Part shown: in pieces, positions 1,930-13,895 of the stretch | Layout: each line of letters starts with the position of its first letter | Position numbering within the stretch: the first letter of the stretch is position 1 | Source of the DNA: a virus | Reading direction: 5' to 3' (one strand) | DNA length: 64,000 nucleotides | IMG/VR virus record: IMGVR_UViG_3300044802_000046 | Coordinates: 1-64,000 of that record | Notes under the pieces: model-generated | What the model was told of the DNA's origin: nothing | The model's input: only the letters and a program-made list of their open reading frames with translations | Database searches by the model: none | Program-made: the position numbers and the translations under genes

Positions 1930-2163
1930 ATGAAAAAGGTTTTTGCAGAGACAGTCCTTCGTATTAAATGTTGTTATTATTCGTGGCGTGATGGTGTAAA
2001 GTTTGAAAAAGGATATAAATATAAAATGATTAGGCATACTGATTTAGACACAATGGAAAAGCATCATAAATTACTTTTAGATTTGGGATGGACTAAGGAA
2101 AGCGATGTTAACGCTGGTTTTACATACGCATGGTGCTGGTATCGTAAACTTAATAACGTTTGA
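1930..2163 (+). CDS. Small hypothetical protein (77 aa)
   Basis: Not recognised. Rich in aromatic residues and Lys (CCYYSWRDGVKFEKGYKYK; YAWCWYRKLNNV). It begins after an A-rich leader (AATATTTTAAAAA) typical of Bacteroidota starts. No domain is apparent. Confidence 0.6.
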   Translation: MKKVFAETVLRIKCCYYSWRDGVKFEKGYKYKMIRHTDLDTMEKHHKLLLDLGWTKESDVNAGFTYAWCWYRKLNNV

Positions 2164-2224
2164 CGGTTGGCGAAGTTGCCGACTTAATAGCAAAAAATTA
2201 TCAAACTGTAAATACTTTAATAAA

Positions 2225-2620
2225 ATGGAAGAAACTTTGAATACCACCGAAAACGGCAATTGCGCTAACCATGTGTTAACAACCGTATTAGTTCCAATAG
2301 CGTCTGTAATAGAAATTTATCCCAACAATAAAGGATGTACAACAGAACGAGTGGACGATGATGAAGCAGAAGATGGCTTTTACTTTAAACAAGTAGAGTA
2401 CATTTTAGAAAAACCAAACTTATTGGTGAACGCAAAAATAGAGTGCGATAATGATTTTAGAATAAACCATTCATATTTGTCTGAACATGGAATTGTATGG
2501 ATAGCTGTTAGTAAAAACACGATAATTAACCAATCAAACATCATGGATAAATTTTTTTTTCCTAAAGAAGTGGTATGTATAGGAAGCCCGTTCGCTTGTG
2601 GAACTGGAATTCCGTCTTAA
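2225..2620 (+). CDS. Hypothetical protein (131 aa)
   Basis: Starts at the ATG at 2225 (MEETLNTTENGNCANHVL). An upstream in-frame ATG at 2105 would overlap the previous gene and add an atypical segment. The product is acidic and beta-rich, with an EDGFYFKQVEYILEKP centre and two C-terminal cysteines (VVCIGSPFACGTGIPS). I do not recognise the family. Confidence 0.6.
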   Translation: MEETLNTTENGNCANHVLTTVLVPIASVIEIYPNNKGCTTERVDDDEAEDGFYFKQVEYILEKPNLLVNAKIECDNDFRINHSYLSEHGIVWIAVSKNTIINQSNIMDKFFFPKEVVCIGSPFACGTGIPS

Positions 2621-2838: not shown

Positions 2839-2976
2839 TAGTATGAACGCTAATGATGGCGGTAAGAATAGGCTGCTTTAAGATTACTCATGTTAAGTAC
2901 AAAACTATATGCGGCTTACTTTTACCGTATGTTAGCAAATCGGGCTTTATTATTAATAACTAAAAAAAATAAAACA

Positions 2977-3203
2977 ATGACAAAATTTTCATCTACACAT
3001 TATTATGTTCAGGCTCAAAAAGAAGGAGGAGCTATTGAAATAGTTTGCCATACTCACGATAAGGAAACAAATGAGTATTATCATAAATTACTCGACCGTA
3101 AAAAGCTAAAGCGTTTGCTGAAGCTGAAAAGAAAATCACTCCTGATGTAAAATTCAGAGTTGTTAAATTAACTGAAACTTACGATGCTGATTCGTGGTTT
3201 TAG
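2977..3203 (+). CDS. Small gene split by a -1 frameshift at an A5 run
   Basis: The ATG at 2977 opens MTKFSSTHYYVQAQKEGGAI... and would end at 3150 with an implausible KLKRLLKLKRKSLLM tail. A shift of -1 at the five-A run 3100-3104 instead gives KAKAFAEAEKKITPDVKF followed by RVVKLTETYDADSWF, ending at TAG 3201-3203. The second version looks like a natural protein end (about 74 aa). The cause may be a sequencing indel in the homopolymer, a true inactivating mutation, or programmed slippage. The heptamer TAAAAAG is not a classic X XXY YYZ site. Function unknown. Confidence 0.55.
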
Positions 3204-3209
3204 CCTGTT

Positions 3210-3249
3210 TGCTAACACTTAAATAATTACATTATAAAATTTTAAACCA
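3210..3249 (+). repeat. Duplicated leader element, copy 2
   Basis: GCTAACACTTAAATAATTAC followed by ATTATAAAATTTT sits directly before the 3250 gene. It matches the 2625-2664 element at most positions, with one extra base of spacing near the start codon. Confidence 0.55.
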
Positions 3250-3526: not shown

Positions 3527-3610
3527 AATAACGCGGGTATTCTAATTCATTTGGTTCATAACATAAAGTTGTAATGTGAGAGTAAGAGCTTTTTGTTATC
3601 CCGCGTTATT
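3527..3610 (+). other. Long-loop perfect hairpin between small early genes
   Basis: AATAACGCGGG (3527-3537) is exactly complementary to CCCGCGTTATT (3600-3610), an 11-bp GC-rich stem around a loop of about 62 nt. It starts five bases after a stop codon and ends 15 bases before the next ATG. Inside the loop, TAACA and TGTTA can form a further pairing. It could be a terminator, an RNA-processing stem or a structured 5' leader. Confidence 0.5.
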
Positions 3611-3624
3611 TTAAACCAAACAAC

Positions 3625-4529: not shown

Positions 4530-5909
4530 ATGAAAATAGAAAAACTTACACCAGAACAAGAGGCCAAAATACCGATATATTTAAAAAGGTATTTTGACAA
4601 AGTGTATTCTTCTAAGCCTATCATAAAAGAAGATGCAAAAACCAGTATTGAATATATTTATAATAACGCTGGTTATAAAATACCTTTTATATGGTATTGC
4701 GATAGTCCGTTAATGATGCAAATTATTGGTAATTTATTTACTAATAAAGATCTTCGGGCCAATCTTGGGGCCAATCTTGAGGCCAATCTTTGGGACAATC
4801 TTCGGGCCAATCTTGAGGCCAATCTTTGGGACAATCTTCGGGCCAATCTTTGGGCCAATCTTCGGGACAATCTTCGGGACAATCTTCGGGCCAATCTTCG
4901 GGCCAATCTTTGGGCCAATCTTGGGGCCAATCTTGGGGCCAATCTTCGGGACAATCTTCGGGACAATCTTCGGGACAATCTTCGGGCCAATCTTTGGGAC
5001 AATCTTCGGGACAATCTTCGGGCCAATCTTTGGGCCAATCTTGGGGCCAATCTTGGGGCCAATCTTGGGGCCAATCTTGGGGCCAATCTTTGGGACAATC
5101 TTGGGGACAATCTTCGGGCCAATCTTTGGGCCAATCTTTGGGCCAATCTTGGGGCCAATCTTGGGGCCAATCTTCGGGACAATCTTTGGGACAATCTTGG
5201 GGACAATCTTGAATATATATCAACATCGCATTATGGTAATTTGTCCGATTATGGATGGACATGTTTTTACGATTTTATTAATAATGAACTTTTACCTTCC
5301 TATAATTTAGAATTATGGAATAAATGGAAGATATTGATAAATTCAAATGTGTATGATATGATCCAATTAGACGAATTGTGCATAGTTTGTTCAATGCCGA
5401 ATATTGTGAATATTGATATAAATAAAAGAATTCATTCCGAAAATTCATGCTCAGTACATTTTAAAGATGGATATGAAATATACTCATGGCATGGTACTAT
5501 TATTCCGAAATCGTGGATTACAAACAAAGATTTGATAACAAAAGATACGATACTTAACGAACAAAATGCTGAAAAACGCAGAGTATTACAAGAAATATTA
5601 GGCTCTGAAGAGTTTTGTAAAAGACTTGAATGTGAAATAATAGACTCTAAAATAGATGGACAGGGAAACTTGATGTCGCTTTGGAGGTCTAAAGATAAAG
5701 ACATTATATGTAATGAGTTTATTCAGTATTACGATTGCATATGCCCGTCAACCAAAAGAAGATACTTTTTGTGTGTGCCTGAAACGTATAAAAACGTAGA
5801 GGATGCAAAACGATATACTTTCAAGGATAAAAATATCGAAATAAGACATGGAGATTTAGGCTTTTTGAACCTGAAAAAAGAGTTTAATCAACCAATTTTT
5901 GAATCATAA
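4530..5909 (+). CDS. DUF6745-like protein with 38 tetrapeptide repeats (459 aa)
   Basis: The N-terminal 75 residues (LTPEQEAKIPIYLKRYFDKV...) and C-terminal 230 residues follow the DUF6745 pattern: a WHGTIIPKSWI segment, a DTILNEQNAEKRRVLQEILG segment and STKRRYFLCVPETY near the end. In that family a variable repeat separates the two halves. Here the spacer is about 38 units of N-L-x-A/D (x is Arg, Gly, Trp or Glu). Asn and Leu codons are always AAT and CTT, so variation is almost only amino-acid changing. I know no experimentally defined function for this domain. Repeat expansion makes length polymorphism likely. Confidence 0.8.
   Translation: MKIEKLTPEQEAKIPIYLKRYFDKVYSSKPIIKEDAKTSIEYIYNNAGYKIPFIWYCDSPLMMQIIGNLFTNKDLRANLGANLEANLWDNLRANLEANLWDNLRANLWANLRDNLRDNLRANLRANLWANLGANLGANLRDNLRDNLRDNLRANLWDNLRDNLRANLWANLGANLGANLGANLGANLWDNLGDNLRANLWANLWANLGANLGANLRDNLWDNLGDNLEYISTSHYGNLSDYGWTCFYDFINNELLPSYNLELWNKWKILINSNVYDMIQLDELCIVCSMPNIVNIDINKRIHSENSCSVHFKDGYEIYSWHGTIIPKSWITNKDLITKDTILNEQNAEKRRVLQEILGSEEFCKRLECEIIDSKIDGQGNLMSLWRSKDKDIICNEFIQYYDCICPSTKRRYFLCVPETYKNVEDAKRYTFKDKNIEIRHGDLGFLNLKKEFNQPIFES
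4749..5210 (+). repeat. 12-bp tandem repeat array (about 38 units)
   Basis: Uninterrupted units of AATCTT + (C/G/T)GG or GAG + G(C/A)C. Because the period is a multiple of three and the unit contains no stop in any frame, all six frames stay open across it. Only the frame of the 4530 gene carries domain-like flanks. Absence of synonymous variation argues for recent slippage or unequal recombination. Confidence 0.95.
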
Positions 5910-7069: not shown

Positions 7070-7480
7070 ATGAGTATTTATTCAAAACTTTATTGGCTAA
7101 CTAGGCTAGATGGAATTCAAGGATTGTTTATTGCATTTGCCGTAATTGCTTTTGTCGCAGCCATAGCTATAGCTGTATATGCAATATGTAGTGCAGATTT
7201 TGATGAATTTCATGAAAAGGAAATTGAAAAACGAAAGGCGTCAAGAAAGTCGTTGCTTAAAAAAATAAATTGGATTATTCCTTTAGGGTTTACATTTACT
7301 ATCATAAGTATTTTAATTCCAAATAAAAACGAAATGATATTCATTGTTGCCGGAGGTAAAACAATTGATTGGGTTCAAAAGGATACTAGTATCTGTAAAA
7401 TACCATCTCAAACAACTGCTATTATTTCTGATTTCTTAGATAAGCAAATTAAGAAGATGAACGAAAAACCTGATAAATAA
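7070..7480 (+). CDS. Small membrane protein (136 aa)
   Basis: Two predicted transmembrane helices: about residues 15-38 (GLFIAFAVIAFVAAIAIAVY) and about 65-83 (WIIPLGFTFTIISILI), with a charged stretch between them (EIEKRKASRKSLLKK). The C-terminus (KTIDWVQKDTSICKIP...) resembles other Bacteroidota phage membrane proteins with a TID.V..D tail. Its stop overlaps the next ATG by one base. Role unknown. Confidence 0.75.
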   Translation: MSIYSKLYWLTRLDGIQGLFIAFAVIAFVAAIAIAVYAICSADFDEFHEKEIEKRKASRKSLLKKINWIIPLGFTFTIISILIPNKNEMIFIVAGGKTIDWVQKDTSICKIPSQTTAIISDFLDKQIKKMNEKPDK

Positions 7481-8466: not shown

Positions 8467-8991
8467 ATGAAAAATTTATTTTATTTGTTGATCTTATGTT
8501 CATTACTTTATAGCTGCGATCAGGATCAGTCTGGAATTCCTAAATCCGCCTCAGGAGTATCTAAGGCAAATGTCAAGGTGCAAGTAGATGAAAACGGGAA
8601 CAGTGTTGAACAGAATAATATTATTGAAAGACTTCGCCGGGATAACCTTCCTGGATCTATCAAGCATTTATATGTTATTTCGGCATATTCCGGGCAGGTT
8701 ATAATATATTCAACAGTAAAGGGAAAGGTTACGAGCTCAAGTAAAAGACTAACTCCTGGTAATGTAAGTAATGAGTTGGGGTTTAGAGTGGATATTGATA
8801 ACGAGTCTTTTCATACAAAGGAAGTTCTTGGCGATGACGGATCTTATGGGAGTTCGGACCCTTACATATATTGGTTCGATGTAAAAGGAGTTTACCACCA
8901 ACATTACTTATCTGGAGGTCAAATAGTCCATATTTCAGATCAGCCAATTGCGGTTAAGTCAGTTATTATAAATATGGAAAGCGAGAAGTAA
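8467..8991 (+). CDS. Conserved lipoprotein (174 aa)
   Basis: N-terminal signal peptide with lipobox LLYSC, Cys17 being the lipidation site. The mature part contains NNIIERLRRDNLPGSIKHLY and VISAYSGQVIIYSTVKGKV, a very conserved segment I recall from lipoproteins in phages and prophages of several phyla. Function is unknown. Export to the outer face of a membrane is expected. It overlaps the next gene by one base and is probably co-expressed with that membrane-anchored protein, suggesting a two-component envelope function such as superinfection exclusion. Confidence 0.8.
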   Translation: MKNLFYLLILCSLLYSCDQDQSGIPKSASGVSKANVKVQVDENGNSVEQNNIIERLRRDNLPGSIKHLYVISAYSGQVIIYSTVKGKVTSSSKRLTPGNVSNELGFRVDIDNESFHTKEVLGDDGSYGSSDPYIYWFDVKGVYHQHYLSGGQIVHISDQPIAVKSVIINMESEK

Positions 8992-12682: not shown

Positions 12683-12810
12683 TAACGTTGGTAATAATAA
12701 ATGTATGGGATTTAAAATCAGTAACCTATCTACATACGCCGAAATAAATTAAAGGTACAATTGCACAATTTATCACTACCGCGCATATGTTTTTTTATTG
12801 TGTGTTAGCG
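12683..12810 (+). repeat. attC-like recombination site 1
   Basis: Begins TAACG at 12683 and ends GTGTTAG at about 12802-12808. Outer arms are imperfectly complementary: AATAATAAATGTATG on the left against CATATGTTTTTTTATTG on the right. The right end GTTAGCGGTTGTTATT is followed 13 bases later by the ATG of cassette 1. Architecture (asymmetric palindrome, terminal AAC/GTT) is that of integron attC sites. Pairing is the weakest of the three. Confidence 0.5.
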
Positions 12811-12828
12811 GTTGTTATTCAATTTTTT

Positions 12829-13032
12829 ATGAAAACAAATAAATCAAGACTTGAAGTAGGAGATAAAGTAGAATTTCACAGCGGAAATTTTGAAGGTTTG
12901 ACAGGGGAAATAATTCATACAGACTGGAATTCGAAGCGCGAAAAATCGATCTACGGAATAAGACATACGGTTGAATTGTCAAATGGAGAAATTGGATATA
13001 TAGAAAAAGCCGAACATTGGCACTTCATTTAA
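12829..13032 (+). CDS. Cassette 1 protein, KOW/SH3-like (67 aa)
   Basis: The start at 12829 (MKTNKSRLEVGDKVEFH) is preferred over an in-frame ATG at 12787, which lies inside the attC-like site. The protein looks like a single SH3-type barrel: VGDKVEFHSGNFEGLTGEII, then IRHTVELSNGEIGYIEKAEHW. KOW/SH3 modules bind nucleic acid or proteins; the target is unknown. The gene sits directly between attC-like sites 1 and 2 with eight bases after its stop, as expected for a promoterless integron cassette gene. Confidence 0.65.
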   Translation: MKTNKSRLEVGDKVEFHSGNFEGLTGEIIHTDWNSKREKSIYGIRHTVELSNGEIGYIEKAEHWHFI

Positions 13033-13039
13033 TAATTAT

Positions 13040-13166
13040 TAACGTTTATAATATCAAATGGCTGGGATTCGGTGCTACTAACTTATCTCTCGCCACAAAA
13101 CTAAAAGGTAGCAAGCTGGCTAATAAACCCACTGACACCCAGCTATTTTATATTATGTGTTAGCGG
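13040..13166 (+). repeat. attC-like recombination site 2
   Basis: TAACG at 13040 and GTGTTAG at 13157-13163. The arms ATAATATCAAATGGCTGGG (13048-13066) and CCCAGCTATTTTATATTAT (13138-13156) pair with only two mismatched positions. The left strand has an extra base in the spacer relative to the right one, an asymmetry typical of attC. The right end GTTAGCGGTAGTTATT agrees with site 1 at all but one of 16 positions. Confidence 0.65.
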
Positions 13167-13175
13167 TAGTTATTT

Positions 13176-13559
13176 ATGGAACATTTAGAATTTTCTGAAA
13201 AATTAAATCAATTAGGCTGTTCATTTAGAAGCACGAATATTGAAAATAAAGTTAAAACTATTGAAATACCCAACACATTTGGAAAATCAGAATTTGTTGA
13301 GATTAAGAATTTTCAATGTGAATATGTTGGGCTTAACGCATTTTCAAGACCAACGCCACTTCAAGCTGTGATAAGCGAAGCAATAGATATTGATAGCTGG
13401 AAACATAGTTGGCACAATGAAATAAAACCAGAGAATTATGAAAAATTCAGAGAGATTATTCAGGAGAAAATGATTAAAAGAGCGGAAGAAATGGACTTTT
13501 TATCAACTGTCTATTTTCAATTGCAACATGAAATATCAAATCGGAGTGCGGATTTATAA
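13176..13559 (+). CDS. Cassette 2 protein, unknown (127 aa)
   Basis: Not recognised. An N-terminal QLGCSFRSTNIENKVKTIEI segment, a central IKNFQCEYVGLNAFSRPTPL and a helical C-terminus (YEKFREIIQEKMIKRAEEMD). It lies 13 bases behind the GTTAG end of site 2 and eight bases before the TAAC of site 3, so it forms a complete cassette. Unknown function is typical of cassette genes. Soluble; no membrane segment. Confidence 0.65.
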   Translation: MEHLEFSEKLNQLGCSFRSTNIENKVKTIEIPNTFGKSEFVEIKNFQCEYVGLNAFSRPTPLQAVISEAIDIDSWKHSWHNEIKPENYEKFREIIQEKMIKRAEEMDFLSTVYFQLQHEISNRSADL

Positions 13560-13566
13560 TTACCAC

Positions 13567-13653
13567 TAACGATGGGCATAAGAAACGTGGCCTTGCAACC
13601 ACTTTCAAAATGCCTACCAGCTTTCCGGCCATGTTTTTTATGCCGTGTTATGT
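13567..13653 (+). repeat. attC-like recombination site 3
   Basis: TAACG at 13567, GTGTTATG at 13645-13652. The arms GGCATAAGAAACGTGGCC (13575-13592) and GGCCATGTTTTTTATGCC (13627-13644) are complementary at 16 of 18 positions. Shorter (87 bases) than sites 1 and 2. The 60 bases that follow (to about 13710) hold no gene; they contain a CACAACGAAGCAC stretch that may be the remnant of a further site. Confidence 0.65.
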
Positions 13654-13715
13654 ACTGGCGCATTATCAGGCACATAGCACACAACGAAGCACGGTAATTT
13701 TATTATTTTTTTAGG

Positions 13716-13895
13716 GTGGGTTATTTTTCTTTAAAATTACTTGTCAGTATTGTACAAGATATATCCGCCATCCTTGGTTTAAAAACTTTAACCTCTTTTT
13801 CGAAAAGTGAAAAAATATCATATCCAGCTGCTGCAAAAAGAAAGACTGATAGATTAAAAATAGATACTATTGAGTTTATAATTGACAATGAATAA
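13716..13895 (+). CDS. Possible small protein with GTG start (59 aa)
   Basis: A 59-codon frame from GTG at 13716 ends two bases before the next ATG. The product ends SYPAAAKRKTDRLKIDTIEF followed by IIDNE, which looks natural. DISAILGLKTLTSF near residue 16 could be a helix-turn-helix. No ATG start is available, so it may instead be the tail of a gene truncated when the cassettes were inserted. Confidence 0.35.
   Translation: MGYFSLKLLVSIVQDISAILGLKTLTSFSKSEKISYPAAAKRKTDRLKIDTIEFIIDNE

Follow-up and report, generated by a model that had tools for sequence, protein, structure and literature searches.

Putative integron-like cassettes in a phage replication block and their relation to phage-borne recombinases of Bacteroidota

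Introduction

Do small genes that lie between similar hairpins in a phage genome belong to a cassette system, and which recombinase would move them? This question is raised by a 64,000-nt stretch of a viral record (IMG/VR IMGVR_UViG_3300044802_000046, positions 1-64,000; hereafter the window), in which a preliminary description read three palindromes as attC-like sites bracketing two gene cassettes. The window belongs to a phage, with matches to the terminase large subunit and portal protein families and further phage genes of the DnaB, NinB-like and exonuclease types. A BLAST search of the window region against named phages found none, and the relatives of this phage tie it putatively to Bacteroidota.

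Carriage of attC cassettes by phages is already known. Qi et al. 2023 (PMC9892861) reported integrons or their components in 21 phages by means of canonical models, including attC in the Polaribacter phage P12002L, and one P12002L attC recombined with IntI1. Accordingly, the suggestion that phages are carriers of cassettes was not new.

Results

Structured sites in the window

Two covariance models were made from hairpins taken beside recombinase genes in other phages only, R1 from 28 short sites and R2 from 40 long sites, with zero window sequence in either. When both strands of the 64-kb window were scanned, five sites were matched and nothing else. The sites and their surroundings are as follows.

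2154-2278, plus strand: site 4, long form (R2, E 5.9e-14)
2225-2620, plus strand: cassette gene whose frame opens inside the loop of site 4
2851-2934, plus strand: site 5, short form with degenerate left core TAATG (R1, E 9.3e-6)
2930-3216, plus strand: cassette body with a frameshifted gene, 79% identity from GTT to TAAC with a body of the relative phage L081
12160-12672, plus strand: NinB/Orf-like recombination mediator gene, left flank (PHROG phrog_72, E 8e-6)
12683-12807, plus strand: site 1, long form, attC reading on the minus strand (R2, E 6.4e-10)
12829-13032, plus strand: cassette 1 gene, 67 aa, weak KOW/antiterminator-like similarity
13040-13162, plus strand: site 2, long form (R2, E 5.6e-10)
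13176-13559, plus strand: cassette 2 gene, 127 aa, relatives in other viral contigs
13567-13650, plus strand: site 3, short form (R1, E 1.5e-8)
13651-13744, plus strand: right flank of the array, conserved with L081

The three sites of the preliminary description are therefore real and lie where it had placed them, but its list was incomplete and overlooked 2154-2278 and 2851-2934. As it had stated, sites 1-3 all run from TAACG to GTGTTA, and sites 1 and 2 have a motif in common, GTGTTAGCGGTWGTTATT, of which the window holds two exact copies, at 12802 and 13157. The crossover core TAAC^G lies at the left end of site 1. With up to three mismatches there are three matches versus 0.14 expected, and the shared right end of sites 1-3 is thus beyond chance. 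The almost full arm pairing described for sites 2 and 3 was also found, pairing being weakest in site 1, and the extra spacer bases of the left arm number 2-3. The genes, which were said to end eight bases before the next TAAC, end 7 bases before it.

In the attC reading, the sites lie on the minus strand of the window (CTAACA...CGTTA). Their lengths are bimodal, about 84-92 nt and 120-128 nt, which is attC-like when measured against the usual attC size range, and they have the paired arms and GTT core of attC-type sites. Folding of the bottom strand, proposed earlier as a check, gave a mixed outcome. The attC bottom strand (window plus strand), which carries the G.T pairs, folds better, but the z-scores of plain single-site folding are modest and unconvincing, about -2 for sites 2 and 3 and +1.6 for site 1. 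Rfam yielded no match, and below threshold only chance ones. Elsewhere in the window, a near-perfect inverted repeat (AATAACGCGGG...CCCGCGTTATT) unmatched by R1 or R2 lies between two small genes at 3528-3615, and a gene at 4530-5909 contains a long LRANLWDNL-type repeat run that is open in several frames.

At the level of sequence, these sites form a family with covarying arms. In the R1 alignment, 14 of the 20 pairs have changes on both sides, double-changed cells number 121 versus 33.6 in shuffles, and a G.U (G.T) pair is nearly invariant (27/28 sites). The alignment is 96.8% paired versus 30-49% when slid, a percentage that is inflated because the sites were preselected by hairpin score; the match to an independent phage is unaffected by this bias. 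A search with the right-arm pattern found the element in 22 viral and 11 bacterial contigs, the latter mostly from Bacteroidota or related MAGs. Five contigs with the same right-arm motif in a different arrangement (L010, L014, L015, L018 and L026) were set aside, and two that an initial search for exact repeats had returned (L002 and L004) were dropped as chance matches. Related hairpins (ACAACG...TGTTGTAG) also occur within reading frames, where they code VVGRSEQLK (L003, 4020-4262; L005, 1900-2210).

Recombinase and docking site in other phages

The window cluster lies within the phage replication block, and its record contains no PF00589 match across 67.6 kb and no Y1 or resolvase match. 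Cassette sites without an integrase had been described here, and with five sites and no recombinase on the record the window represents a CALIN-type cluster. A tyrosine recombinase is missing from 14 of 17 site-bearing viral records, the window included, and the record of the relative L081 has no recombinase either. For IS200/IS605 or REP-type hairpins a Y1 transposase would be expected, and PF01797 is absent from all 17 site-bearing viral records, although a supplier elsewhere is conceivable.

In other phages the sites adjoin a recombinase gene. The site array of viral contig L024 ends beside a 277-residue tyrosine recombinase, and phage L103 (208 kb) has eight sites that lead up to a recombinase of 269 residues. 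Relatives of these enzymes are present in at least 180 viral contigs, from which 80 loci were kept for site counts. At the 80 loci the hairpin scanner found 193 upstream sites on the plus strand versus 5 on the minus strand, and 16 (9 + 7) downstream of the recombinase gene; 57 of the 65 loci with enough upstream DNA had at least one upstream site. Directly before the recombinase gene, most of the 80 loci have a docking sequence like TAAC|TATTATATATAA, whose left side is variable and right side conserved. These comparisons link the recombinase gene to an adjoining attI-like docking site, which is absent from the window record. The preliminary description was right to see cassette recombination sites with an integron-like layout here.

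Cassette units and their movement

L103 contains two copies of a 394-bp unit with 100% identity, one within the array and the other at the docking site. The unit begins immediately after one TAAC, extends as far as the next one and comprises a site and the following gene. Similarly, contig L003 has a near-identical site 2 and the same following gene, with a different preceding gene. From these two cases, the unit is the site plus the gene downstream of it on the window plus strand, so the orientation given in the preliminary description was inverted. In attC orientation, the cassette consists of body and attC with the gene antisense to attC, and in the phage arrays the longest ORF is antisense to attC in 162 of 169 cassettes.

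Cultured Polaribacter phages reveal the same junctions. Freya_1, Freya_2, Freya_6 and Freya_10, isolated on one host strain, carry 0, 842, 2216 and 4942 bp of cassettes at the docking site, which is empty in Freya_1. Every divergence point lies directly after AAC, and the flanks are identical (100 bases on the left, at least 196 from the docking site). R1 and R2 match these marine sites weakly (best E 7e-4), and the Freya case relies on the junctions. More generally, alignment ends fall at cores in 31% (left) and 17% (right) of cases versus 7% background, and in 44-56% among near-identical pairs. The records of Danklef_1-5 (MT732458-MT732462) differ in length by 116-991 bp, and the integrase position shifts equally.

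The window phage has a relative, L081/L090, with 85% nucleotide identity across 3.2 kb. Behind the NinB-like gene that the two share (93% aa identity with L081), L081/L090 has five sites separating other genes at the same place as the window array, including two longer ORFs of DNA-methyltransferase type, one of them confirmed by Pfam. Window 13559-13744, which includes site 3 and the next 94 bases, matches the last site of the L081 array and its continuation (8710-8895) with 76% identity. The body at 2930-3216 corresponds to 7072-7358 in the other array of L081; the body is common and the site is not shared, which is unexplained by simple recombination at one core. The earlier expectation that related phages gain or lose cassettes at G^TT agrees with the junctions at AAC in Freya and L103 and with the comparison of the window with L081 and L003; at sequence level, the duplication and the gain or loss exactly at AAC are clear.

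As for the window genes, the cassette 1 gene has a possible alternative start at 12787, within site 1, the cassette 2 gene has relatives of 62% (L005) and 53% (L006) identity, and Pfam gave weak matches only on the cassette genes. Considering the evidence together, we regard it as highly probable that the segment represents an array of two or three cassettes, and that this array belongs to an integron-like system found in Bacteroidota and in their phages.

Recombinase identity and the canonical integron alternative

The phage recombinases retain the R, H..R and Y motifs. The spacing from G-L-R to H..RH is 85-91 residues in the phage enzymes versus 132-134 in three IntI, and the alignment of a phage enzyme with IntI4 (2a3v) falls into two blocks and lacks about 47 residues, the insertion. 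We tested for the IntI-specific insertion and found it absent, and therefore do not class the system as an IntI integron. The enzymes score below the cut-off of TIGR02249, a model dropped as discriminator since it matches in all control genomes. Their best NCBIfam match is NF040815 at 168-197 bits, short of the curated cut-off of 220, and the nearest PDB structures are archaeal XerA. In the tree, where some branches are long, the phage enzymes form one group (84/92) that is separate from IntI (100/98) and lies near Bacteroidota chromosomal enzymes.

These properties bear on the possibility that the cassettes are canonical IntI-type ones (CALIN), acquired from an integron of a bacterium and mobilized by the IntI of a host. 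The G^TT core, the layout and the size classes are attC-like, and R1 matches three sites in P12002L, at a methyltransferase cassette, although these may differ from the attC that recombined with IntI1 (PMC9892861). However, R1 and R2 gave zero matches to class 1, Shewanella and Vibrio integrons, the phage genes are antisense to attC, and a dedicated non-IntI recombinase adjoins the arrays. We consider this origin very unlikely. The attC assignment of the preliminary description is accordingly kept as integron-like but not as canonical IntI/attC, and the system is predicted to work like an integron that is not of the IntI kind.

Sites as possible translation starts

Of the 102 long sites, 57 have an ATG in the loop from which a reading frame extends across the right arm and on into the cassette gene. 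Such a start was seen in 0 of 74 short sites and, on the opposite strand, in 4 of the 102 long sites. Site 2154-2278 of the window is one long site with such a loop start. This frequency suggests that the sites probably have a role in translation too, and we infer that long sites take part in the expression of cassette genes. Site-coded N-termini such as MEEVNKNTELDNTDKKLHISDV are seen in long sites of L107-L186 and at window 2154-2278. Several of the longest cassette genes (L090, L003, L112 and other arrays) are DNA methyltransferases (N6_N4_Mtase, MethyltransfD12).

The loop start codons, together with the G.U pairs and better folding of the plus strand, would also suit hairpins that are plus-strand RNA elements (terminators, leaders or ribosome-entry elements), with exchange by ordinary homologous recombination between repeats. 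However, neighbouring arms differ in sequence, which leaves only short homology between neighbouring sites, the junctions fall on AAC to the base, the sites are confined to one side of a recombinase gene, next to a single conserved docking sequence, and the genes of the MAG array have the opposite orientation. The probability of this explanation is smaller still. Least probable is an ordinary lysogeny integrase accompanied by hairpins that are unrelated passenger repeats: in the study that isolated Freya, Danklef and Leef, the integrase was taken to indicate a temperate lifestyle (PMC8776804), but the empty and filled docking sites between matching flanks in Freya and the duplicated cassette at the L103 docking site speak against it.

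Bacteroidota chromosomes and plasmids

Recombinase homologs were found in 57 of 148 sampled Bacteroidota genomes, where a chromosomal docking site, ATATAAnnnAG^TTRGC, lies behind the 3' end of the recombinase gene. In the MAG and Chryseobacterium plasmid arrays that were checked, the genes are sense.

Two plasmids hold related arrangements. On pHH1107 (FJ012881, 4456-6530), the recombinase relative TnpF directly precedes tet(X3), with G^TTATGTGCC before the gene, CTAAC after it and no model match in the interval; tet(X) there is a possible cassette within the Bacteroidota-type system. The Flagellimonas plasmid NZ_CP092416 (3868-5959) carries, in this order, two model-positive sites, erm(F), GCATAAC|TACTGG and the recombinase, and erm(F) occupies the position expected of a cassette.

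Discussion

An integron-like cassette system of Bacteroidota and phages is, by a wide measure, the likeliest explanation of these observations. In the mechanism that we propose, a cassette would consist of a single structured site, 84-92 or about 120-128 nt long, and its downstream gene. The window plus strand, equivalent to the attC bottom strand, would fold into a hairpin that has TAAC/GTTA at its base, arms that covary and the near-invariant G.T pair, and we infer that this folded single strand is the active form. An XerA/IntI-like tyrosine recombinase would cut at TAAC^N, which is G^TT on the other strand, and the cut cassettes would move into the docking site beside the recombinase's own gene. 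For the window phage, the recombinase would be supplied in trans, from the host or a co-infecting phage.

We also think it likely, with more reserve, that this is a separate integron class with an XerA-like recombinase lacking the IntI domain, widespread in Bacteroidota chromosomes, plasmids and phages, whose orientation in phages has every cassette read in the same direction as the recombinase gene, with many cassette proteins starting inside the site, which would serve as docking hairpin and translation start. Integrons with IntI, attI and attC (class 1 and chromosomal) likewise have tandem single-gene cassettes, structured GTT-core sites, a docking site beside the recombinase gene and the newest cassette at that site. 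In contrast to them, the phage recombinase lacks the IntI insertion, canonical integrons are unmatched by R1 and R2, phage genes are antisense to attC, and many of them start within the site.

With respect to previous work, the phage CALINs (PMC9892861, P12002L) similarly have attC-like sites, along with methyltransferase cassettes, in a phage of flavobacteria with no integrase, whereas the arrays of the present study are linked, across many viral contigs, to a docking site and a dedicated recombinase that the phages themselves carry. NF040815, 'site-specific tyrosine recombinase/integron integrase', and XerA are closest to the phage enzymes, which nevertheless stay under the family cut-off and are tied to cassette arrays. 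An integron-like subgroup of simple tyrosine recombinases has been reported to include members that conserve the insertion in the catalytic domain incompletely (PMC8138268); the parts of that article that were consulted describe no cassette sites, docking site or phage arrays. The word integron is absent from the main text of the Freya isolation paper (PMC8776804). In the open-access literature, a coverage outside which most subscription papers and all preprints fall, we found no description of this phage system with its own recombinase, and within the literature searched the phage integron-like class appears undescribed. Integron-finding programs that depend on the IntI domain and canonical attC sites are likely to overlook it.

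In summary, Bacteroidota phages seem to operate a version of their own of the integron, a gene-swapping system familiar above all from bacteria resistant to antibiotics. The Polaribacter phage isolates with empty and filled docking sites make the system testable now. If our reading is true, the integron principle works without the IntI domain that has been described as essential. Several of the small cassette genes are DNA methyltransferases, likely directed against restriction. Phages would then have their own cassette-exchange machine, and the rapid turnover of small phage genes would be explained.
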